Positions 5,192-19,585 of a DNA stretch of 37,516 nucleotides are shown piece by piece (the first letter of the stretch is position 1; the number at the start of each line of letters is the position of its first letter). Below the pieces are notes generated by a model. That model worked only from the letters and a program-made list of their open reading frames with translations, searched no databases and was not told where the DNA came from. This stretch comes from a virus. A program made the position numbers and the translations under genes. The DNA lies in IMG/VR virus record IMGVR_UViG_3300032561_001927, positions 1-37,516 of that record; one strand, 5' to 3'.

Positions 5192-5267
5192 GGGCCCGTA
5201 GCTCAGTTGGTAGAGCAAGCGACTTTTAATCGAGAGGTCCCGGGTTCGAGTCCCGGCGGGCCCACCA
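5192..5267 (+). tRNA. tRNA-Lys (anticodon UUU), CCA encoded
   Basis: The 76-nt cloverleaf has a 7-bp acceptor stem (GGGCCCG/CGGGCCC), D stem GCTC/GAGC, anticodon loop CTTTTAA, T stem CCGGG/CCCGG with TTCGAGT loop, discriminator A and encoded CCA. Anticodon TTT reads Lys AAA/AAG codons. The top of the anticodon stem is odd: only 29-41, 30-40 and 31-39 are Watson-Crick, while 28-42 is G-A and 27-43 is A-G. The adjacent integrase suggests that the 3' part of this gene is the phage attachment core, in which case the prophage supplies or restores the 3' end. Confidence 0.95.
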
Positions 5268-8455: not shown

Positions 8456-10159
8456 TTACTCCGCTGCTTGACTGGTGGGGATGTCGAGGCGGTCGCAGAG
8501 GTACTGCACCGTCTGGCCGAAGGTGCCACCGGCCAGGGCGGCGGTGTCGGCGGCCGAGAGCTTGATCTCGAAGGCGTCCTCGATCAGCACCGCCGGGTTG
8601 AGGCCGTAATCCTCGACCCAGCGGTCGTCGTCCTCGCACAGATCGGGCGGCTCGGCCCCGGCCCGCAGCTTGGCGGTGCCGACCGCGTCGGCCAGGATGT
8701 CGGCGACCTCGTCGCTGGTGGTGAGCGACACCAGCGGCGGGATGGTGGCGAGGTGTTCGATGTCGATCTGATCGGGCAGCAATACCGGCGGGAACGGCAC
8801 GCGCCAGAGCTTGGAAAGGTGGAGCAGCAGGGGATGCGGCGCGGCGCCGTTGGGCGGCAGATAGAGGCGTTCGGTGACCCAGGCAACCAAGGCCTCGTTG
8901 ACGTTGTCGCTGCCGAGACCCTGCCACACATCCCCGGCGTCGATGGCGCCGGGCTTGAACCCCTTGCGGCCGTCCTTGGCCGGTCCGACCTGATCGCAGA
9001 GATTGCCCAGGATACCGGTGCCCTTGGACAGCATGGCGGTGGGCAGTCCGTCTGCGGTGTAGCTCAGCGGGCCCTGATGGTCATATTGCCCCGGCCAGTG
9101 GTAGAGCCGGTCGATCAGCAGCAGCTTCATGGCGTCGCGCACCGTCATGCAGACCCGCATGGCCTGGCGCCAGGTCTCGATGGCCTGGCGGCGCGCCTCG
9201 ATCCGCTGGTTGATCCGCTCGCGCTCCGCGGCGTAAACGTCCTGGCCGGGGGGCGCCGCGGCGGGATCATGGCGGCGCAGGAAAGCGGGCGGTTCCTCCT
9301 CCTCCGCCCGCGCCTGTCCGCCGATCTCTTCGGCCCGCTGCTGGTAATGCTCGGCCTCGGCCGGCTGCAACGCTCCGACCAGCGGGGCCGGCTTGGGGGC
9401 CTGCACCCGCTCCAGGCAGTCGCTCTGGGTCAGGTGGCCGGCGAGGGCGAGGGCGCGGCTGTCGTCGTCGAGGTTGTCGTGGATCTGCAGGGCGATCTGC
9501 ACTACCCGGCGCCCCATCTTGAGCCGGTCGGCGATGCGGTCGGTGTCCCAGGCCAGTTCGTCGCGCAACCGCGCCAGGGCGGCGGCGCGATCCAAAAAGT
9601 GGACGCCCTCGCGCTGGTGGTTGGCGACCACGGTCACCTCCAGCGCCTCGGCCTCGTCGGCGACCTTGCTGCACGGTACCCCCAACTGGTCGATCTCGTC
9701 GGGGATCTCGCCGGCTTCCTCCAGCCGGACCAGGGCGCGATAGCGGCGACCGCCATCTGCCACCAGGTCAAAGCCGTCGCGGCGCGGATCGGGATAGACG
9801 ATCAGCGGCTGCAACAGGCCGCGATGGGCGATGTCCTCGGCCAGCACGTCGATGGATGCCGGGTCGAAATGGACCCGCTCATTCGCGGGCGACAGCGCCA
9901 GCCGGGCCAGCGGCCGCCGCACGAAGGTGGGATCGGCCGGGGCGGTGGCCGCCGGGGCTTCGCCCAGCAACTGCGACACAGATACGCCGAAATGGCCGGC
10001 GAACTTTTCGATGGTGCTGAGGTCCATGCGACCGCCGCGCTTACGCGACGCGGCGATGGCGGTGCGGTCGAGGCCGGCGGCGAGGCAGGCCGCCCCCTCG
10101 CTGGTGCCGGCGGTCTGGATCAGGGCGAGGACGCGATCGAAGGGGGTGGTGGCGGTCAT
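8456..10159 (-). CDS. ParB/Srx-domain protein with extra N-terminal HTH, 567 aa
   Basis: Residues about 15-66 form a Cro/XRE-like HTH (AACLAAGLDRTAIAASRKRG...FGVSVSQLL). A ParB/sulfiredoxin-type domain follows (about 85-185) with DLVADGGRRYRALVRLE, the CTP-binding GERR-type motif, and VANHQREGVHFLDRAAAL, the second conserved ParB box. A KorB-like HTH is at about 190-250 (LAWDTDRIADRLKMGRRVVQ). The C-terminal 300 residues are unrecognised. Chromosomal ParB binds parS and loads CTP-dependent clamps. Phage and plasmid versions may serve in partition, transcription or as nucleases. No parA is visible. The ATG at 10159 was chosen because it clears the upstream HTH gene by 5 nt; the longer frame overlaps it. 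Confidence 0.85.
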   Translation of the reverse strand: MTATTPFDRVLALIQTAGTSEGAACLAAGLDRTAIAASRKRGGRMDLSTIEKFAGHFGVSVSQLLGEAPAATAPADPTFVRRPLARLALSPANERVHFDPASIDVLAEDIAHRGLLQPLIVYPDPRRDGFDLVADGGRRYRALVRLEEAGEIPDEIDQLGVPCSKVADEAEALEVTVVANHQREGVHFLDRAAALARLRDELAWDTDRIADRLKMGRRVVQIALQIHDNLDDDSRALALAGHLTQSDCLERVQAPKPAPLVGALQPAEAEHYQQRAEEIGGQARAEEEEPPAFLRRHDPAAAPPGQDVYAAERERINQRIEARRQAIETWRQAMRVCMTVRDAMKLLLIDRLYHWPGQYDHQGPLSYTADGLPTAMLSKGTGILGNLCDQVGPAKDGRKGFKPGAIDAGDVWQGLGSDNVNEALVAWVTERLYLPPNGAAPHPLLLHLSKLWRVPFPPVLLPDQIDIEHLATIPPLVSLTTSDEVADILADAVGTAKLRAGAEPPDLCEDDDRWVEDYGLNPAVLIEDAFEIKLSAADTAALAGGTFGQTVQYLCDRLDIPTSQAAE

Positions 10160-10164
10160 GGCCG

Positions 10165-10725
10165 TCACTCCGCCGCATGGGGGAGATGGCTCGGCGGCGC
10201 AGCCGAAGGCAAGCGACGCGACGAATCCGATTCGTCGCGACAATCCGATTCGCTGGCCCCGGTGGTGGCGGCCAGGGCCTTGAGCAGGGCATAGGCGCGG
10301 GCGCGGACCGTGGGGTCGGTGATGGTGTAGTAGGCCCGCACCAGTTCCAGGGTCTCGCGCTTGGCCATGGGGTCGGGTTCGAACGGCACCTCCTCCGGGG
10401 CCAGGCCCGCACCGCCCTTGATGATGGACAGGGGGCTCTGAGCCTGGGTGCTGTCCGACATGTCGTCGTAGAAGAACGACACCGGCACGTCGAGGACGCG
10501 CGACAGGTCATAGAGGCGCGATCCGCCGATGCGGTTGGCGCCGCGCTCGTATTTCTGCACCTGCTGGAAGGTCAGGCCGATGGCCTCGCCCAGCTTCTCC
10601 TGGGACATGCCCAGCAGGGTGCGGCGCAGCCGCATGCGGGCGCCGATATGGACATCGACCGGATTGGGGGCGCCGCTGGCCAGCCGGCCACGGCTGGAAA
10701 CTCTGCGGGTCTTGGTGGTGGACAT
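10165..10725 (-). CDS. XRE-family HTH regulator, 186 aa
   Basis: Residues 25-90 are a classical XRE domain: IGARMRLRRTLLGMSQEKLG, then LTFQQVQKYERGANRIGGSR and LYDLSRVLDVPVSFFYDDM. The sequence closely follows a widespread alphaproteobacterial regulator family. A second helical region (about 120-160) follows. The tail is odd: it contains a dispersed palindrome (10220-10250) that is translated here as Asp/Ser/Arg-rich sequence. The ATG at 10725 has GGAGG upstream. It is the first gene of the leftward operon, directly behind an operator-bearing promoter, so it may be both a product and a target of the switch. Confidence 0.88.
   Translation of the reverse strand: MSTTKTRRVSSRGRLASGAPNPVDVHIGARMRLRRTLLGMSQEKLGEAIGLTFQQVQKYERGANRIGGSRLYDLSRVLDVPVSFFYDDMSDSTQAQSPLSIIKGGAGLAPEEVPFEPDPMAKRETLELVRAYYTITDPTVRARAYALLKALAATTGASESDCRDESDSSRRLPSAAPPSHLPHAAE
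10220..10250. repeat. Dispersed palindromic repeat, copy 1 (inside the XRE gene)
   Basis: GACGAATC-C-GATTCGTC (10220-10236) is an odd palindrome with 8-bp arms. It is followed by GCGACAATCCGATT. Bases 10222-10250 match 13426-13454 at 28 of 29 positions. The repeat lies in the last 90 nt of the XRE coding sequence and is translated. Confidence 0.75.
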
Positions 10726-13129: not shown

Positions 13130-13404
13130 GCGGCGCCGCATCGGGCGCGGCCCTTACGGCGGTGGCGCTGGCCTGCGAGCGGGGAATTTCGTTGCAGGCG
13201 GCGCGCAAGCTTCTGACCCAGGAACCCCTGTTTTCCGGCGCGGTTGCGGGTTCCCCGCCGGAAAGTGCCGGCGCGGCCTTGGACACGCCGCCCGGCTCCC
13301 GGCGCGCAGGCGCCGAATCGAAAGGTTCGGTTGCCGGCGAAGCCGGCCGGGAGGCGGCGGCCGATCCTCCCGCCGCCGCCTCCCATCCTGGTGCGGCGGC
13401 ATGA
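13126..13404 (+). CDS. Hypothetical phage protein with low-complexity tail, 92 aa
   Basis: The first 35 residues (SGAASGAALTAVALACERGI, SLQAARKLLTQEPLF) form helices of moderate complexity; the rest is Ala/Gly/Pro-rich and probably disordered. The gene has 4-nt overlaps at both ends (13126 and 13401), which supports it despite the weak sequence. The tail includes GC-rich palindromic sequence and may be a decayed or expanded region. No function can be assigned. Confidence 0.5.
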   Translation: MSGAASGAALTAVALACERGISLQAARKLLTQEPLFSGAVAGSPPESAGAALDTPPGSRRAGAESKGSVAGEAGREAAADPPAAASHPGAAA

Positions 13405-13802
13405 ACGGCGATGGAACCAAGGCGGCGAATCCGATTCGCCGCGACAATCCGATTGTCCGCTCCGCGTTCCCTGCGGTCCGCCGGGATAATCCGCGCCTGC
13501 TGGAACTGGCCCATGCCCTGGTGTGGGGCAATATCGCCTATCTGATCCATGTGGGCCTGGATGATGCCGGCCTGGCCCGCACCGTGCGGGTGACCATGAT
13601 CCATCCCAACCGGTCGTCATGCGACCTGGTGGATGATTGCGTCACCCTCACCGTCCTGCTGCGGGACTGGCCGTTGGTCGAGCTGGCGGCGCGCAATCCG
13701 GCCAATGCCGGCGCCATGGCGTTTTTGATCCGCCAGGCCCGCGCGGTGGAGATCCAGGCCGGCCCCATCGTGCGCTATGCCCATGGGCTGGTTAAGCCAT
13801 GA
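13401..13802 (+). CDS. Hypothetical phage protein with repeat-encoded N-terminus, 133 aa
   Basis: The body (ELAHALVWGNIAYLIHVGLD, DLVDDCVTLTVLLRDWPLVE) is a globular, helical-looking domain I do not recognise. The N-terminus is unusual: MNGDGTKAA is shared with the terminase-like gene at 17339 (25 of 27 bases), then NPIRRDNPIV is encoded by a double palindrome (13422-13457). The gene has 4-nt overlaps with both neighbours and lies just ahead of the primase-like gene, so it may belong to replication. Confidence 0.65.
   Translation: MNGDGTKAANPIRRDNPIVRSAFPAVRRDNPRLLELAHALVWGNIAYLIHVGLDDAGLARTVRVTMIHPNRSSCDLVDDCVTLTVLLRDWPLVELAARNPANAGAMAFLIRQARAVEIQAGPIVRYAHGLVKP
13422..13457. repeat. Dispersed palindromic repeat, copy 2 (two odd palindromes, in coding sequence)
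   Basis: GCGGCGAATC-C-GATTCGCCGC (13422-13442) is followed at once by GACAATC-C-GATTGTC (13443-13457). Both are perfect around a single central C and both carry AATCCGATT. The left 29 nt match the copy at 10222-10250. The element is translated as NPIRRDNPIV near the start of the gene. Confidence 0.78.
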
Positions 13803-14971
13803 GCCCGGCCCCGACCCGCAAGCCGCCGTCCAGGGACAGCGTCCAGGATCGCGCCACCTTGGAGCGCATTGCCGACTTGATGCGGTCGCGCGTCTTCGAC
13901 CTGGTGCGCGGTCCCTGGGATCTGCGCGACGGCTGGCGCGAGGGACATGACTGGGTTTGCCGCAACCCGCTGCGCGGCGACAAGACCGCCAAGAGTTTCC
14001 GCGTCTCCCTCTCCGGCCCCTATCAGGGCATGGTCAAGGATTTCGCCGGGCCGTTCGGCCGTTCGGGCAAGGATGCCATGAGCGCCCTGTCGTTCCATGC
14101 CGAACTGCTGCACAACGGCGACATGGGGGCGGCGGTGCGCTGGGCCAAGGCCTGGGGCGGGCTGGATGGCGCCAATCCGGAGGCGTTGCGCCAGACCCAG
14201 CGGGCGCTGGTGTCCTATGATGACCGCGCCGATTCCGATGCCGAGGAGGTCGAGAAGAAGCGGCGGCGGGCCAAGGCGATCTATCTCGACGCCCCGGCCG
14301 GTCTGGTCGACACCCCGGTGGACGAATATCTGCGCGGTCGCGGCCTCGACATCCGGGCGCTGCCATACCCCATGCGCTGCCTGCGCTTCCATCCGCGCCT
14401 TTATTGCGCCGAGCTGGGCAAGCCCGATCAGGACTCGGCCTATCTGCCGGCCATGGTGGCACCGATCAACGGCATGGCCGGGGCGGTGCTGGGCGTCCAT
14501 CGCACCTATCTGAGCCGCAATCCGGATGGGCGATGGGTCAAGGCGGCGCTGAAAAATCCCAAGAAGACCTATGGACCCTATCAGGGCGGCGTGATCCGGC
14601 TGTGGAACGGCTGCCGCTTCGATCCGGAGACCGGAGAAGTGTTCTACGGCCGCAAGCTGGGCGAGCTGACCACCCCGGGCGAGGTCGATATCACCGAGGG
14701 GATCGAAGACGCCCTGTCGGTGGCCATCGCCTGCCCCGATGCCAGGGTGGTGGCGGGGGTGTCGCTGTCCAACATGGTCGGCCTAGCCTTCCCGCCCTTG
14801 ATCGAGCAAGTCCGCTTCTGGCGCCAGAACGATCCGGCGGATTCTGCCGCGGCGCGCCAGTTCGAGCGGGCGGTGAACAACACCTATGCCCAGGGCAAGC
14901 GGGTGGTGGTGGTGGATATCCCGCCCGAATGGAAAGACCCCAACGAGGTCTTGCAGGGGAACGACAGATGA
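13799..14971 (+). CDS. Toprim-domain primase-like replication protein, 390 aa
   Basis: The N-terminal part (about 25-100: WVCRNPLRGDKTAKSFRVSL, GPYQGMVKDFAG) has the look of a phage primase N-terminal domain. The C-terminal part is a Toprim_3-like domain with DITEGIEDALSVAIA (Glu300 as the catalytic acid) and VVAGVSLSNM. The usual second acidic motif (DxD) appears as RQNDPADSAA, so the first Asp is Gln. PPEWKDPNEVL near the C-terminus matches the usual end of phage Toprim proteins. It probably primes phage replication with the following ATPase, to which it is coupled by ATGA. It overlaps the preceding gene by 4 nt. Confidence 0.85.
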   Translation: MSPAPTRKPPSRDSVQDRATLERIADLMRSRVFDLVRGPWDLRDGWREGHDWVCRNPLRGDKTAKSFRVSLSGPYQGMVKDFAGPFGRSGKDAMSALSFHAELLHNGDMGAAVRWAKAWGGLDGANPEALRQTQRALVSYDDRADSDAEEVEKKRRRAKAIYLDAPAGLVDTPVDEYLRGRGLDIRALPYPMRCLRFHPRLYCAELGKPDQDSAYLPAMVAPINGMAGAVLGVHRTYLSRNPDGRWVKAALKNPKKTYGPYQGGVIRLWNGCRFDPETGEVFYGRKLGELTTPGEVDITEGIEDALSVAIACPDARVVAGVSLSNMVGLAFPPLIEQVRFWRQNDPADSAAARQFERAVNNTYAQGKRVVVVDIPPEWKDPNEVLQGNDR

Positions 14972-16962
14972 GCAAACCCGCCGGCACCCCTCCGCCCAAT
15001 ACCGTCCCGGCCAATGTCCATGTGCTGCAAGAGGCGCGCGCCAAGGGCCGGCAATACAAGCCGGAGGGGGATCCTGATCCGCTGCCGGAGGAGCCGCCGG
15101 CCGCCGATCCGGCGCCCGATGACGAGTGGCAGGACTTCCTGCCGCTGGATTTCCCAGTGAAGGCACTCGGTGTCCAGGGGCGGGTTTGCTACTTCCTTGA
15201 TGAGCTGCACCAGTTGCAGGACCTGGCCTGGAAGGACATCGAGCGGAAGAACATCGAAGGATTGATGGGGCGCCAGCCCGATCTGTTGGAACAGTACTGG
15301 CCCCGCCTCGACGCCAAGGGAAAGGAAAAGGGCTGGCGCGCCGAGGATGTGTCGCGGGCGCTGAAGGCTGCCTGCGCCGCCATGGGGGTCTGGTCACCCA
15401 CCGAAAAGGTTCGCGGTGCCGGTGCCTGGCTGGGCGCTGATGGCGAGCTGATCGTCCATTACGGCACGCGGGTGGTGGTCTACGGCGCCGATGGTTCGGC
15501 CGCCCAGGGTCGCGAGCCGGGTAAAATCGGTGACCTGGTCTATCCGTCACGTCCCTCGCTGCCCCAACCCACCACCGAGCGCGAGCCCGCCAGCGGCGCC
15601 GCCGCCGAAATCCTCGGCGATCTCAAGACATGGATGTGGGCGCGGCCGGAGGTCGATCCCTATCTCGAACTGGGCCATATGGTGGCAGGCATGCTGGGCG
15701 GGGCGCTGAAATGGCGGCCACTGAAATGGACCACCGGCGGCAAGGGCACCGGCAAGTCCACCCTGCACGATTACGGCAAAGGACTGCTGGGGCGCTGGCT
15801 GGTCTCGACCTCGGATGCCACCGGCGCCGGCATCTGGCAAAAGCTGGGCTTCGATTCGCGGCCGGTGGCGATCGACGAGGCCGAGGGCGAGGAAGACAAC
15901 CGCCGCATGAACACCCTGCTGGGGCTGGCGCGGCAGGCGGCCAGCGGCGGCGTGGTGTTGCGCGGCGGCGCCGACCACGAAGGACGCGAATTCGCGGCCC
16001 GCTCGACCTTCGGCTTGTCCTCGATCGCGGTGCCTCCGCTCAACTCGGCCGATCGATCTCGCTTTGTCGTCCTGCAGCTGCACAAGCTTCCGGACGGGAT
16101 CAAGCCGCCCAATCTGGCACCTCGGCGCCTCGAACAACTGGGCCGGCGGTTGTTGCGCCGCATTGTCGACAACTGGGGGCGCTGGGCGGATACCCTGACC
16201 CTCTATCGCGAGGCCATGGAACTGGCTGGCCACACGGCGCGCGGCGCTGACGTGTTCGGGACGCTGCTGGCCTGCCAGGATCTGGTCCGCCACGATCATG
16301 TCCCGGATGGTGACGAACTGGCCAGGTGGACGGAGCGGCTGCGGGTCGGCGATCTGGCCGAGCTGGCCGGCGATCTGGCCATCGAGCAGGCTTGCCTGCT
16401 GTATCTGCTGACCCGCCGGCTTGAGGCCTATCGCGGCGGCGTGGCCAAGACCATCGGCGAGTGGGTCAAACAGGCGGCTGATCTCGACGCCTTCGGCCAC
16501 CCCAGCGACGACGCGCGCATCGCCAACGATATTCTCAAGTCCTATGGCATGGAGGTGCGGCTGGCGCCCCGTGACAAGGCCACCGGTGACCCCAAATGGC
16601 CCGGAGTCTATTTTTGGGTGGCCAATCGCCATACCGAGCTGGCGCGGCTGTTCGATCGTACCAAATGGCAAGGCGGTGCCGATACTCAGGGCGGTTGGGT
16701 GCAGCATCTGGGCTGGTTGCCCGGGGCGCGTGGCAATATCCCCTACTGGTCCGGGGCTCAGACCAAGGCCACCCTCGTGCCCATTGATTTCTGCCTGAAA
16801 GGCCCGCCGGACGGCGGGCAAGACGATTTGTCGGCCGCAGGTGGCTCGCCTGGCTCTGGCGTGGATAGCGGCACGGCGGCAGGATTGGCGAGCCACCGGA
16901 GCGCGGCCGACCCCGCTCTATCGTCCTCGGCCCCCAGCCCCGACCCATTGGCGGGGCTATAA
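14968..16962 (+). CDS. Phage replicative helicase/ATPase-like protein, 664 aa
   Basis: The Walker A motif TGGKGTGKST (about residues 256-265) and a Walker B VAIDEAEGEED (Asp303, Glu304) identify a P-loop ATPase. The flanking order resembles phage/plasmid replication helicases of the D5/DUF927-like kind. Next comes FAARSTFGLSSIAVPPLNSADRSRF with a sensor/arginine-finger-like Arg pair. The C-terminus is a Gly/Ser-rich unstructured tail. The start at 14968 (ATGA overlap with the Toprim gene) is chosen over an in-frame ATG within that gene. With the Toprim protein it probably makes the replisome. The exact helicase superfamily cannot be settled by eye. Confidence 0.82.
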   Translation: MSKPAGTPPPNTVPANVHVLQEARAKGRQYKPEGDPDPLPEEPPAADPAPDDEWQDFLPLDFPVKALGVQGRVCYFLDELHQLQDLAWKDIERKNIEGLMGRQPDLLEQYWPRLDAKGKEKGWRAEDVSRALKAACAAMGVWSPTEKVRGAGAWLGADGELIVHYGTRVVVYGADGSAAQGREPGKIGDLVYPSRPSLPQPTTEREPASGAAAEILGDLKTWMWARPEVDPYLELGHMVAGMLGGALKWRPLKWTTGGKGTGKSTLHDYGKGLLGRWLVSTSDATGAGIWQKLGFDSRPVAIDEAEGEEDNRRMNTLLGLARQAASGGVVLRGGADHEGREFAARSTFGLSSIAVPPLNSADRSRFVVLQLHKLPDGIKPPNLAPRRLEQLGRRLLRRIVDNWGRWADTLTLYREAMELAGHTARGADVFGTLLACQDLVRHDHVPDGDELARWTERLRVGDLAELAGDLAIEQACLLYLLTRRLEAYRGGVAKTIGEWVKQAADLDAFGHPSDDARIANDILKSYGMEVRLAPRDKATGDPKWPGVYFWVANRHTELARLFDRTKWQGGADTQGGWVQHLGWLPGARGNIPYWSGAQTKATLVPIDFCLKGPPDGGQDDLSAAGGSPGSGVDSGTAAGLASHRSAADPALSSSAPSPDPLAGL

Positions 16963-16964
16963 CC

Positions 16965-17141
16965 ATGACTCCCATGCCCATGCCCCCACCCGATGGCTAC
17001 AGGCAAGAATTCGCGCGCGATCTTGTCGGCAACCTTCGGGTTAGGGTGTGGTTAGGTTTGCCGGTTTGGAGAGTATGCAGCTATATCAATGGGTTGCGAC
17101 GCGACCAAACCGCCAAACCGCCAAACCTCTCCCGCGCCTGA
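16965..17141 (+). CDS. Possible small protein, 58 aa
   Basis: An open frame begins 2 nt after the helicase stop: MTPMPMPPPDGYRQEFARDL, VGNLRVRVWLGLPVWRVCSY, ending in KPPNLSRA. The first half has natural-looking helical composition. The end crosses the CAAACC repeats. GCGGGG lies upstream at loose spacing. It may be real or may be chance reading of a cis-acting region. Confidence 0.35.
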   Translation: MTPMPMPPPDGYRQEFARDLVGNLRVRVWLGLPVWRVCSYINGLRRDQTAKPPNLSRA

Positions 17142-17307
17142 CGTAACAGCGAAACCGGCTCAAAGCGGAACGATCCGCTTACATGTGGGGAACGCGGTTT
17201 GGTGGTTTGGTTCCTACCTCTAGGACTAAATAGACATGAGAAATCAGAGACATATCAACCTAACCAGCGGCCAAACCGGGACCAAACCGGTGGATCGGGC
17301 GGGTTTG
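17039..17307. repeat. CAAACC/GGTTTG repeat cluster, candidate origin or packaging site
   Basis: The hexamer occurs ten times. GGTTTG starts at 17055, 17063, 17196, 17204 and 17302. CAAACC starts at 17106, 17114, 17122, 17272 and 17283. Many are exactly 8 bp apart, forming tandem sets in opposite orientations. GGTTAG occurs at 17039 and 17050, CCTAACC at 17259. A relatively AT-rich segment lies at 17221-17262. The cluster sits between helicase and terminase genes, where a replication origin or a terminase recognition site would fit. From 17142 to 17338 there is no gene. Confidence 0.75.
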
Positions 17308-17338
17308 GTCGCCAGCTTGAATAAAATACGGGGGTGAT

Positions 17339-17836
17339 ATGAGCGGCGATGGCACCAAGGCGGCGCTGGATCTGGCTATGGACGTGGCCGGGGAGGATGA
17401 CGAGCCGGAACAGCTGGCGCTGGGTGATCTGCTGGGCCTGCCGGTGCTGCCGGCCGGGCAGATCGAGCAGCTGGGCTCGCGCCGGCCGGGTCGACCGAAG
17501 GGGGCGCGGAACAAGCGCACCACCGACATGGCCGAGTGGATCCTGCGGCAGGGCTCGCCGCCGCTGCTGACCCTGGTGCGCATGGCCGACATGCCGGTGG
17601 ACGAGATGGCCAAGCGGCTGGGGTGCAGCCTCTTGGAGGCATGGCAAGAAAAGCGCCACTGCGCCACGGCGGCGCTGCCCTACCTGCACCAGCGCCAGCC
17701 GCTGGCGGTCGACCTCACCGACCATCGCGAGGTGAGGCTGACCATCGTCGAGAGCTCTCGTCCTGATCCGGTCCGCGACGTGCTGCAAGTCATTGAAATT
17801 ATTGACAACTCGGACGAGGGGGAAAGCGATGTCTGA
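17339..17836 (+). CDS. Probable terminase small subunit, 165 aa
   Basis: The position directly ahead of the large terminase fits a small subunit, which recognises the packaging site and regulates the motor. An AT-hook-like basic stretch, RRPGRPKGARNKRTTD, lies at residues about 48-63; GRPKGARNKRT is typical of phage small terminases. A helical domain follows (AEWILRQGSPPLLTLVRMAD, MAKRLGCSLLEAWQEKRH). GGGGGTGAT precedes the ATG. The first nine codons match those of the gene at 13401 at 25 of 27 bases. The CAAACC cluster just upstream could be its target. The assignment rests on motif and context. Confidence 0.7.
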   Translation: MSGDGTKAALDLAMDVAGEDDEPEQLALGDLLGLPVLPAGQIEQLGSRRPGRPKGARNKRTTDMAEWILRQGSPPLLTLVRMADMPVDEMAKRLGCSLLEAWQEKRHCATAALPYLHQRQPLAVDLTDHREVRLTIVESSRPDPVRDVLQVIEIIDNSDEGESDV

Positions 17837-18092
17837 CAGTCGCGGTCTGACAGTCGGCCTGAAAGGCGCGGAAATGCTGGGGTTCGCGCCTCTCGCGCAA
17901 TGGATCGAACATCGAAAGGTCGCCACCGCCGGAGCCTTCCAAAGCGATATCGCTTTCGGCGGGGGGGGTACCCCCGGTTTCGCGCCGAATTGCGCGCGCG
18001 CCCCCCTGCCAGCGTGGTTTTCCGCCATTCCCGGAGTTTTCGGGCCGGAGCGAAACTTGCGGTCGGCAGATCGGGCGAGGGTGTGGGCATGA
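17829..18092 (+). CDS. Doubtful 87-aa frame between terminase genes
   Basis: The frame overlaps the small terminase by 8 nt and the large terminase by 4 nt (ATGA), so it fits the coupling pattern. The sequence is poor: Gly- and Pro-rich with AFGGGGTPGFAP from a palindromic stretch. LAQWIEHRKV is like the translation of a tRNA D-arm. Two perfect palindromes lie within it, AAAGCGATATCGCTTT (17941-17956) and GGGGGTACCCCC (17964-17975). It may be a cis-acting site kept in frame rather than a functional protein. Confidence 0.4.
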   Translation: MSDSRGLTVGLKGAEMLGFAPLAQWIEHRKVATAGAFQSDIAFGGGGTPGFAPNCARAPLPAWFSAIPGVFGPERNLRSADRARVWA

Positions 18093-19585
18093 GCGGCTTC
18101 ATCGATATCACCTGGAAATCGCCGGGTTCGGTCGCGGATCGGTTCATGGCGTCGACGGCGCGCACGCAGATCATCAACGGGCCGATCGGGTCGGGAAAAA
18201 CCACGGCCGTGCTGATGAAGGGGATTCATCTGGCGGCGGCGCAAAGGCGGTCGACACGGGATGGGGTGCGCAAGTTCAAGCTTTGCATCGTCCGCGACAC
18301 CTATCGCCAGCTGTGGAAAACGACGATCCCGTCGTGGTTCAAGCGGGTGCCGAAAGAGGTGGGCGAGTTCATCGGCGCCGATGGTGCCCCGGCCAAGCAT
18401 CGGGTGAAGTTCGGCCTGGGCGATGGCAGCAAGGTCGACCTGCAGGTGGAATTCGTGGCGATCGGCGAGAACGCGGTCGAGGATGTCCTACGCGGTTATG
18501 AGCCGACCGCCTTCTACCTCAACGAGGCCGATCTGCTGGCGCGCGAGGTCTGGGATTTCGCCGATGGCCGTGTCGGCCGCTATCCCGACATGGATGAGGG
18601 CGGCCCCAGCTGGCGCGGCGTGCTGATGGACTGCAATGCGCCGGAGCTGGGCTCGTGGCTGTATGACGATGTCTTCACCAAGTCGGCGGAGGAATTGGCC
18701 GCCGGCAACATCGATCTGTTCCGCCAGCCTTCGGGTCTGTCGGCCGAGGCGGAGAATATCGCCAACCTGGATGGTGGCGCCGGCTATTACCACAATCAGG
18801 CCCTCAACAAGCCGGCTTGGTATGTGGCCCGCATGCTGGAGAACAAGCCGGGCTACTCGCGCGCCGGCAAGCCGGTCTACCCGGAGTTCAACGATGCCCT
18901 GCATGTGCCGGCCGGCGATCTGGAGCCGGTCAAGGGTATCCGCCTGATCGGCGGACTGGATGCCGGTCTGCGCCCGGCCGCCATGCTGTGCCAGCATATG
19001 CCCTCGGGCCAATGGCGGGGGCTGGACGAGCTGGTGACGGAGCCGGGTGTCGGGCCGCGCCGGTTCGGTCAGCGCCTCAATCTGCTGCTGTCCGAGCGCT
19101 ATGCCGGGTTCGATGTGGTGTTCTACGCCGACCCCGCCGCCCAGCATGGTCAGGACAAGGCGGCGGAGGAATTGTCCTGGTTGCAGATCGTCGAGGAGGA
19201 GATCGGCTTCCCGGTGCTGGCGGCGCCCACCAATTCCATCATCCGGCGGCTGGAATCGGTGCGCCTGCCGTTGACCCGGCTGATCGATGGCCAGCCGGGG
19301 TTCTTGCTGAGCTCGCGCTGCAAGGTGATCCGCAGCGGCTTCAATGCCGGCTACCGCTTCCGCAAGCTGAATATCAGCGGCGCCGATCGCTATGGCGATG
19401 AAATCGACAAGAACGATTTCAGCCATCCCCATGACGCCTTGCAATACGCCCTGTCGGGCGGTGGCGAGGATCTGGCGGTGATGTATCGCCACGAACGCAA
19501 TTCCGGCCAGCCGCGCCAGCGCACGGCCATATCCGAGGAGGGTGGTGGTCATGGCCGGCAACGATTCGCAATCGGGGACCGATAA
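18089..19585 (+). CDS. Terminase large subunit, 498 aa
   Basis: Motor and nuclease that cuts and packages phage DNA. The Walker A variant NGPIGSGKTTA is at residues 30-40 and Walker B AFYLNEAD with catalytic Glu146 follows. The RNase-H-like nuclease domain shows acidic motifs IGGLDAGLRPA (about 290), DVVFYADPAAQ and a final NDFSHPHDALQYAL. The ATG at 18089 is chosen; the frame runs open upstream to 17900, but the extension reads through palindromes as Arg-rich sequence. The length and motifs are typical of podoviral terminases. It is overlapped by the next gene at its 3' end (35 nt). Confidence 0.93.
   Translation: MSGFIDITWKSPGSVADRFMASTARTQIINGPIGSGKTTAVLMKGIHLAAAQRRSTRDGVRKFKLCIVRDTYRQLWKTTIPSWFKRVPKEVGEFIGADGAPAKHRVKFGLGDGSKVDLQVEFVAIGENAVEDVLRGYEPTAFYLNEADLLAREVWDFADGRVGRYPDMDEGGPSWRGVLMDCNAPELGSWLYDDVFTKSAEELAAGNIDLFRQPSGLSAEAENIANLDGGAGYYHNQALNKPAWYVARMLENKPGYSRAGKPVYPEFNDALHVPAGDLEPVKGIRLIGGLDAGLRPAAMLCQHMPSGQWRGLDELVTEPGVGPRRFGQRLNLLLSERYAGFDVVFYADPAAQHGQDKAAEELSWLQIVEEEIGFPVLAAPTNSIIRRLESVRLPLTRLIDGQPGFLLSSRCKVIRSGFNAGYRFRKLNISGADRYGDEIDKNDFSHPHDALQYALSGGGEDLAVMYRHERNSGQPRQRTAISEEGGGHGRQRFAIGDR

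Follow-up and report, generated by a model that had tools for sequence, protein, structure and literature searches.

A mirror-image repeat array behind the D5-type helicase gene of a temperate podovirus-like phage: a candidate iteron-type replication origin

Background

Replication origins that consist of iterons and are read by a D5-type helicase are of a known kind. In SaPIs, the C-terminal domain of Rep reads iterons located directly downstream of the rep gene, and the C-terminal domain of Cch2 binds direct-repeat iterons downstream of the cch2 operon (PMC7581432). The P4 alpha protein is described as an origin-recognition, helicase and primase protein (Ziegelin 1993, as cited in PMC8628076). 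The annotation of the P4 record gives the octamer GGTGAACA for both ori and crr. Short repeated sites are also present beside small-terminase genes, as in P1 pac and lambda cosB.

Here we describe an array of short repeats located between the helicase gene and the terminase genes of a phage. The DNA analysed (hereafter the window) comprises 37,516 nucleotides, positions 1 to 37,516 of IMG/VR virus record IMGVR_UViG_3300032561_001927, and includes a stretch of host DNA (gyrA-like, coaD-like).

Results

Sites and blocks of the array

The preliminary description of this DNA counted ten CAAACC/GGTTTG hexamers, which is exact. At 17055-17307, CAAACC starts at 17106, 17114, 17122, 17272 and 17283 (plus strand) and GGTTTG at 17055, 17063, 17196, 17204 and 17302 (minus strand). 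Its chance rate of about 0.1 copies agrees with the value of about 0.09 that we computed for 253 bp, and the 8-bp periods of the tandem hexamer sets are exact as well; the pair at 17272 and 17283 is spaced by 11 bp. The entire window contains 20 copies, against 13.6 expected, and half of these sit in the array. When all six-letter words were compared, only GCC-type low-complexity words clustered more densely in 260 bp.

Weak copies were accepted if the AC core was kept and at least 6 of 8 positions matched CCAAACCG. This rule yielded degenerate sites at 17038, 17044 and 17049 (minus strand) and at 17150 and 17259 (plus strand). The GGTTAG and CCTAACC sequences that had been described as flanking the hexamers are indeed present, but not as flanks: both are degenerate members of the array, which therefore extends from about 17038 to 17308. 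The helicase gene stops at 16962, 76-92 nt ahead of the array, and the TerS-like gene starts on the other side of the array, at 17339.

The array (17038-17308), a candidate replication origin, is one compact locus with the word CCAAACCG in mirror-image blocks, a layout that is kept in relatives. Block A (17038-17068, minus strand) contains four left-pointing sites, GGTTAG, GGTTAG, GGTTTG and GGTTTG, the first two of which are degenerate. It is separated by a spacer of 50% GC (17069-17104), which falls within a conserved divergent step of about 44-46 bp, from block B (17105-17127, plus strand), with three centre-pointing sites in an 8-bp period. The centre (17128-17195) has a G + C content of 60% and contains the inverted repeat AAGCGGA-ACGA-TCCGCTT (17163-17180); instead of this repeat, alternating purine-pyrimidine DNA is found at the array centre of L026, L059, L005 and L352. 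Block C (17195-17209, minus strand) consists of two exact centre-pointing sites, again with an 8-bp period; a third site of this block may have decayed to GGTTCC (17212). The spacer that follows (17210-17259, 38% GC) is a probable unwinding element. Block D (17259-17289, plus strand) contains CTAACC, which is degenerate, and two copies of CAAACC in steps of 11-12 bp, and the outer site E is GGTTTG (17301-17308, minus strand). The blocks form two mirror sets around the centre, with the AT-rich part inside the right set.

Genes of the window

Upstream of the array, a Toprim primase (13799-14971) and a D5/SF3-like AAA+ helicase of 664 aa (14968-16962) are encoded in the same replication module; downstream, the TerS-like gene (17339-17836) and the gene for the terminase large subunit (17900-19585) follow, all on the plus strand. 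We propose the helicase as initiator and its C-terminal domain (residues ~471-612, nt 16378-16803) as reader of the word; the TerS-like protein is not the proposed reader. Other genes of the window encode a head-tail (portal-like) connector, capsid and tail proteins, and an integrase gene adjoins a tRNA-Lys gene (5192-5267). The GC skew showed no turn at the array, the cumulative skew peaking near 19.5 kb.

Two other types of repeat were seen in the window. At 10224-10250 and 13428-13454 there are two copies each of AATCCGATT with 18-bp spacing, and the DNA between the copies is conserved in part (GAATCCGATTCGTCGCGACAATCCGATT and GAATCCGATTCGCCGCGACAATCCGATT); from their sequence, these resemble paired operators of a phage regulator. 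In addition, two different ORFs begin with 27 bp that are 93% identical (13401-13427 and 17339-17365) and encode MNGDGTKAA and MSGDGTKAA, respectively; this is a gene start that has been duplicated.

Structure of the helicase

Searches of Pfam and NCBIfam gave no name for the helicase. An AlphaFold model was built with 35 relatives (pLDDT 83; 88 for the C-terminal domain alone). The best structural match to this model was SCCmec Cch (Z 16.2, residues 52-608), followed by the SaPI5 primase-helicase (Z 15.8, residues 55-468), both with an rmsd of 5-7 Å, and next by MCM proteins at about 14-15. Foldseek matches were ASFV PrimPol, poxvirus D5/E5 and NrS-1. Judged by the model, the core of the protein belongs with the D5/SF3 primase-helicases. 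A profile search of the PDB sequences yielded nothing informative beyond the P-loop, and comparison to P4 alpha by hhalign gave a match of the ATPase region only (E 0.0029, probability 10.7%).

The model of the C-terminal domain consists of helices and, after them, a hairpin of two strands (588-594 and 598-605) that carries residues 591 and 593. A search of the PDB with this domain alone revealed no clear relative; the best match was the winged-helix pCW3 relaxosome protein (Z 4.5), and the origin-binding domain of P4 alpha was absent from the match list.

Conservation in related phages

A search for the array in related phages had been suggested in the preliminary description, which named lack of conservation there, along with lack of binding by phage proteins, as refuting its reading. 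We found the layout conserved but not the word. A nucleotide search with the window array gave no match in phages, as expected if the words change. By a word search with CCAAACCGCCAAACC in viral contigs we obtained the near-identical L003/L050 and the divergent phages L026 and L059, in which the words are arranged as in the window, ahead of TerS. These were the only true relatives from the exact-word search, which returned 73 contigs with mostly chance or unrelated clusters. In two phages found via TerS (L004 and L005), the place and the arrangement are unchanged but the words are others, AACGTCAGAA-like and GGGACA.

Further relatives were gathered with alignments of the helicase and TerL, and more loci were obtained from genome searches. 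In a word-blind scan, the most clustered hexamer or heptamer of each locus was taken. The top cluster of most helicase loci (4-16 kb each) had about 10 copies per 250 bp and was located near TerS, and each lineage had its own word. With the words partly assigned by hand, 84 arrays contained 34 distinct six-base cores, nearly all of the form NNNNAC. An AC ending was present in 69 of 70 non-redundant words, a rule that is partly convention, since the last two bases also served to orient the words; for this purpose, however, none of the other base pairs was as consistent.

To compare layouts, 56 non-redundant arrays were superimposed at the word's invariant A. The common layout starts with an outer site, followed after about 20 bp by two outward sites 11-12 bp apart, and after about 46 bp by two or three inward sites 8-9 bp apart; then comes a centre of about 50-80 bp and the mirror image of the preceding part. 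Conserved steps across the arrays are 8/9, 11/12, 18-22 and about 46 bp. The arrays averaged 9.4 sites, 4.4 of them with a mirror partner, compared with 1.80 (sd 0.27) when orientations were shuffled. The spacer to the right of the centre is GC-poor across arrays (35-42% GC). A complete example is L098, with the pattern '> 20 < 11 < 44 > 9 > 8 > 52 < 8 < 9 < 44 > 11 > 20 <'.

A scan for the dyad pattern also returned L079-L082, AT-rich viral contigs that are unrelated by sequence. CAAACC/GGTTTG pairs with similar mirror spacing are present beside a terminase-like gene in L079, L081 and L082; in L079, they adjoin this gene and collagen-like repeats.

Association of the array with the helicase gene

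An automatic array test, which combined a word score with spacing rules, was applied at a threshold of 4. Of the 93 non-redundant helicase loci 65 passed. No locus passed among 93 dinucleotide-shuffled ones, nor among 71 (593 kb) that encode a TerL of the same family and lack the helicase. The window itself passed narrowly, with a score of 4.1, and the test misses some clear arrays (e.g. L088, L107 and L311), so that part of the 28 failing helicase loci are clear arrays under the threshold. No array was seen in the DNA read of L299 and L316, two loci with close helicases, or in the stretches read of long TerL-family records without helicase (G002, G005, G011 and G016). L142, a 14-kb fragment with TerS and no helicase, contains five copies of ATTTCAG and failed the test.

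In L302, L326, L327, L328, L332 and L333 the helicase stop and the array are -4 to 97 nt apart, and other genes stand before the terminase; most loci without the TerS family of the window have the array within this same distance. The terminases that were checked are of unrelated types, lambda gpA (L326 and L327) or TerL_ATPase (L302 and L333). Among isolates, in Synechococcus phage MinM1, which has a gpA terminase, an array with the word CTCACA is present at the end of the helicase gene, in Bdellovibrio phage phi1422 an array with the word GGTAACA follows right after the primase gene, and word clusters are present in Pseudomonas phage ZRG1 and two gut phage clones. In the stretch read of Bordetella phage PBb001 there was no word cluster. 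Finally, a chromosomal element of Micavibrio (L132:3704-8623, the same as L347) contains an integrase gene and an array upstream of the helicase gene, with no terminase gene found nearby; it may be a satellite akin to P4 or a prophage in decay.

Covariation of words and proteins

Among 35-38 phages, the distance between words correlated with the distance between helicases and primases when the other proteins were controlled for; for TerS and TerL the partial r was about 0. Within the helicase, the C-terminal domain (471-612) covaried with the word (n = 70 non-redundant, partial r = 0.216, p = 0.0005), while p values for the N-terminal, AAA+ and lid segments ranged from 0.28 to 0.99. The covariation of the C-terminal domain is modest, and persisted upon dereplication at 60% (p = 0.002) and at 50% (n = 40, p = 0.008).

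Of 21 helicases with G at word position 2 (50% set), 19 have K or R at residue 593, compared with 2 of 13 in which this word position is not G (Fisher p = 1.8e-5, for a column picked after a scan of about 2,000 column-base tests). As a lead, this points to residue 593 as the strongest plausible base contact.

Similarity between TerS proteins and identity of the words disagreed in several pairs. TerS of the window is 50% identical to that of L088, which has a different word (TCTGAC), and about 30% identical to that of L026, which has the same word. L106 and L107 have near-identical TerS cores and different words; their helicases are about 80% identical and yet the words differ.

In the record of L148 (G012:C1:1308-1508), a frame of 395 aa matches the C-terminal domain of the helicase only (profile 537-609, E 3e-8). 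This match suggests that the word-reading domain may move to another protein.

Alternative functions of the array

As the array precedes TerS, our first hypothesis was a terminase site, and a terminase-binding array had also been put forward in the preliminary description. The TerS-like protein (17339) would then bind the words and start packaging, comparable to the hexamers of P1 pac or to lambda cosB. Packaging sites are known to use repeated short sites near TerS genes, and in the TerS-family phages the array is indeed nearer to TerS (median 47 nt upstream) than to the helicase gene, also when genes are inserted behind the latter: in 11 TerS-family loci with more than 1 kb between array and helicase, the array stays by TerS. 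Promoter or gene-order constraints are a possible cause of this. However, phages with gpA or TerL_ATPase terminases carry arrays immediately after the helicase gene, and relatives that have the TerL family but lack the helicase carry none. The words show no partial correlation in distance with TerS or TerL, and TerS similarity and words disagree in the pairs of the window with L088 and L026 and in L106/L107. Across relatives the array accompanies the replication helicase and not the terminase, in contrast to P1 pac and lambda cosB. The terminase hypothesis was dropped on the covariation and on the phages with unrelated terminases, and we consider a pac- or cosB-like function improbable.

It is very improbable that the array is an operator at which a phage transcription regulator controls the late (packaging) operon from 17339 onwards. 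Regulators often bind repeated sites, and the array is located upstream of the first late gene. Nevertheless, there is no match to a sigma-70-type promoter in 16800-17500, operators do not usually show a wide, conserved mirror arrangement with 46-bp steps, the layout is kept behind the helicase gene when other genes are downstream, and the words covary with the helicase.

A partition or plasmid-prophage maintenance site for the 595-aa ParB_N-domain protein that the window encodes among its early genes (8456-10243, minus strand) is extremely unlikely, since this ParB-like gene is 7 kb off, the words covary with the helicase, and the phage encodes an integrase next to the tRNA-Lys gene.

Discussion

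The array is very probably an iteron origin of the P4/SaPI type, read by the C-terminal domain of the helicase, in a temperate podovirus-like phage. This agrees with the iteron-type origin offered as the other reading in the preliminary description: the array is linked to the helicase, the words covary with the C-terminal domain of the helicase, and the spacing is that of P4 ori and crr. An origin is favoured over a terminase site because arrays occur with unrelated terminases and because the words track only the C-terminal domain of the helicase. The anatomy fits as well: the words form two sets that mirror each other, part of the array is AT-rich, and the helicase has a domain of its own for reading sequence.

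The sequences show the array with its conservation and mirror layout, its link to the helicase, and the covariation of word and domain; from these we infer protein binding, the formation of two rings, melting at 17210-17259 and origin activity. The AAA+ helicase (14968-16962) would bind the CCAAACCG words via its C-terminal DNA-binding domain, and two helicase rings would assemble face to face on the mirror-image blocks. The 38%-GC segment would then melt, and the exposed strands would be primed by the phage primase (13799-14971) and replicated by host enzymes. The lineage-specific NNNNAC word would be set by the C-terminal domain of the helicase; with its own word in each lineage, related phages would not share origins.

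Relative to the literature consulted, mostly that available without subscription, the features that appear to be new are the occurrence in full temperate phages, the mirror layout with rapid turnover of the word, and a candidate rule relating residue and base. Most origins of temperate phages are unmapped, and the layout finds a candidate origin without any shared word. It reaches dozens of phages of Alphaproteobacteria as well as cyanobacterial, Bdellovibrio and gut phages. Furthermore, the many natural pairs of helicase and word, such as L106/L107, make the change of an initiator's target in evolution directly testable.

Comparison with known systems

The array had been considered not to be a known site that could be named, but it resembles the origins of PICI/SaPI and of P4. 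SaPI/PICI origins share the short iterons in two sets directly 3' of a D5-type helicase gene. In these elements the C-terminal domain of the helicase reads the origin and the words are element-specific (PMC7581432, PMC6092414); in the phages described here, the corresponding observation is the covariation. Unlike SaPI/PICI, these phages are complete and temperate and have genes for capsid and tail; in the window, moreover, the GC-poor part lies away from the centre, and the mirror layout has fixed steps of 8, 11, 20 and 46 bp. The window is not a PICI, as it has its own terminase, portal-like connector, capsid and tail; only its origin is PICI-like. An origin organisation said to be unique to PICIs would extend to complete phages.

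SCCmec Cch is the best structural match to the helicase of the window, including its C-terminal part. The putative SCCmec origin, however, has only three five-base iterons and lacks a mirror array of about ten sites.

The P4 octamer GGTGAACA fits NNNNAC and occurs in both orientations, in tandem steps of 9-11 bp. Both ori and crr have a 46-bp divergent step over AT-rich DNA, and this is the commonest divergent step in the phage arrays. In P4 the sites are split between ori and crr, whereas those of the phages form a single compact array; primase and helicase are fused in P4 alpha but encoded by two genes in the phages, and the sequence similarity is weak. By their sites, ori and crr of P4 correspond to the left and the right half of the phage array, respectively, and a link between the two systems is offered on this basis. 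As a tentative and somewhat doubtful extension, the phages, P4 (with ori and crr as halves of one ancestral array) and PICI/SaPI could form one superfamily of mirror iterons, in which a simple code between a few residues of the C-terminal hairpin and the NNN of NNNNAC, K or R at residue 593 for G at position 2 being an example, would drive a rapid turnover of mutually incompatible origins among phages.
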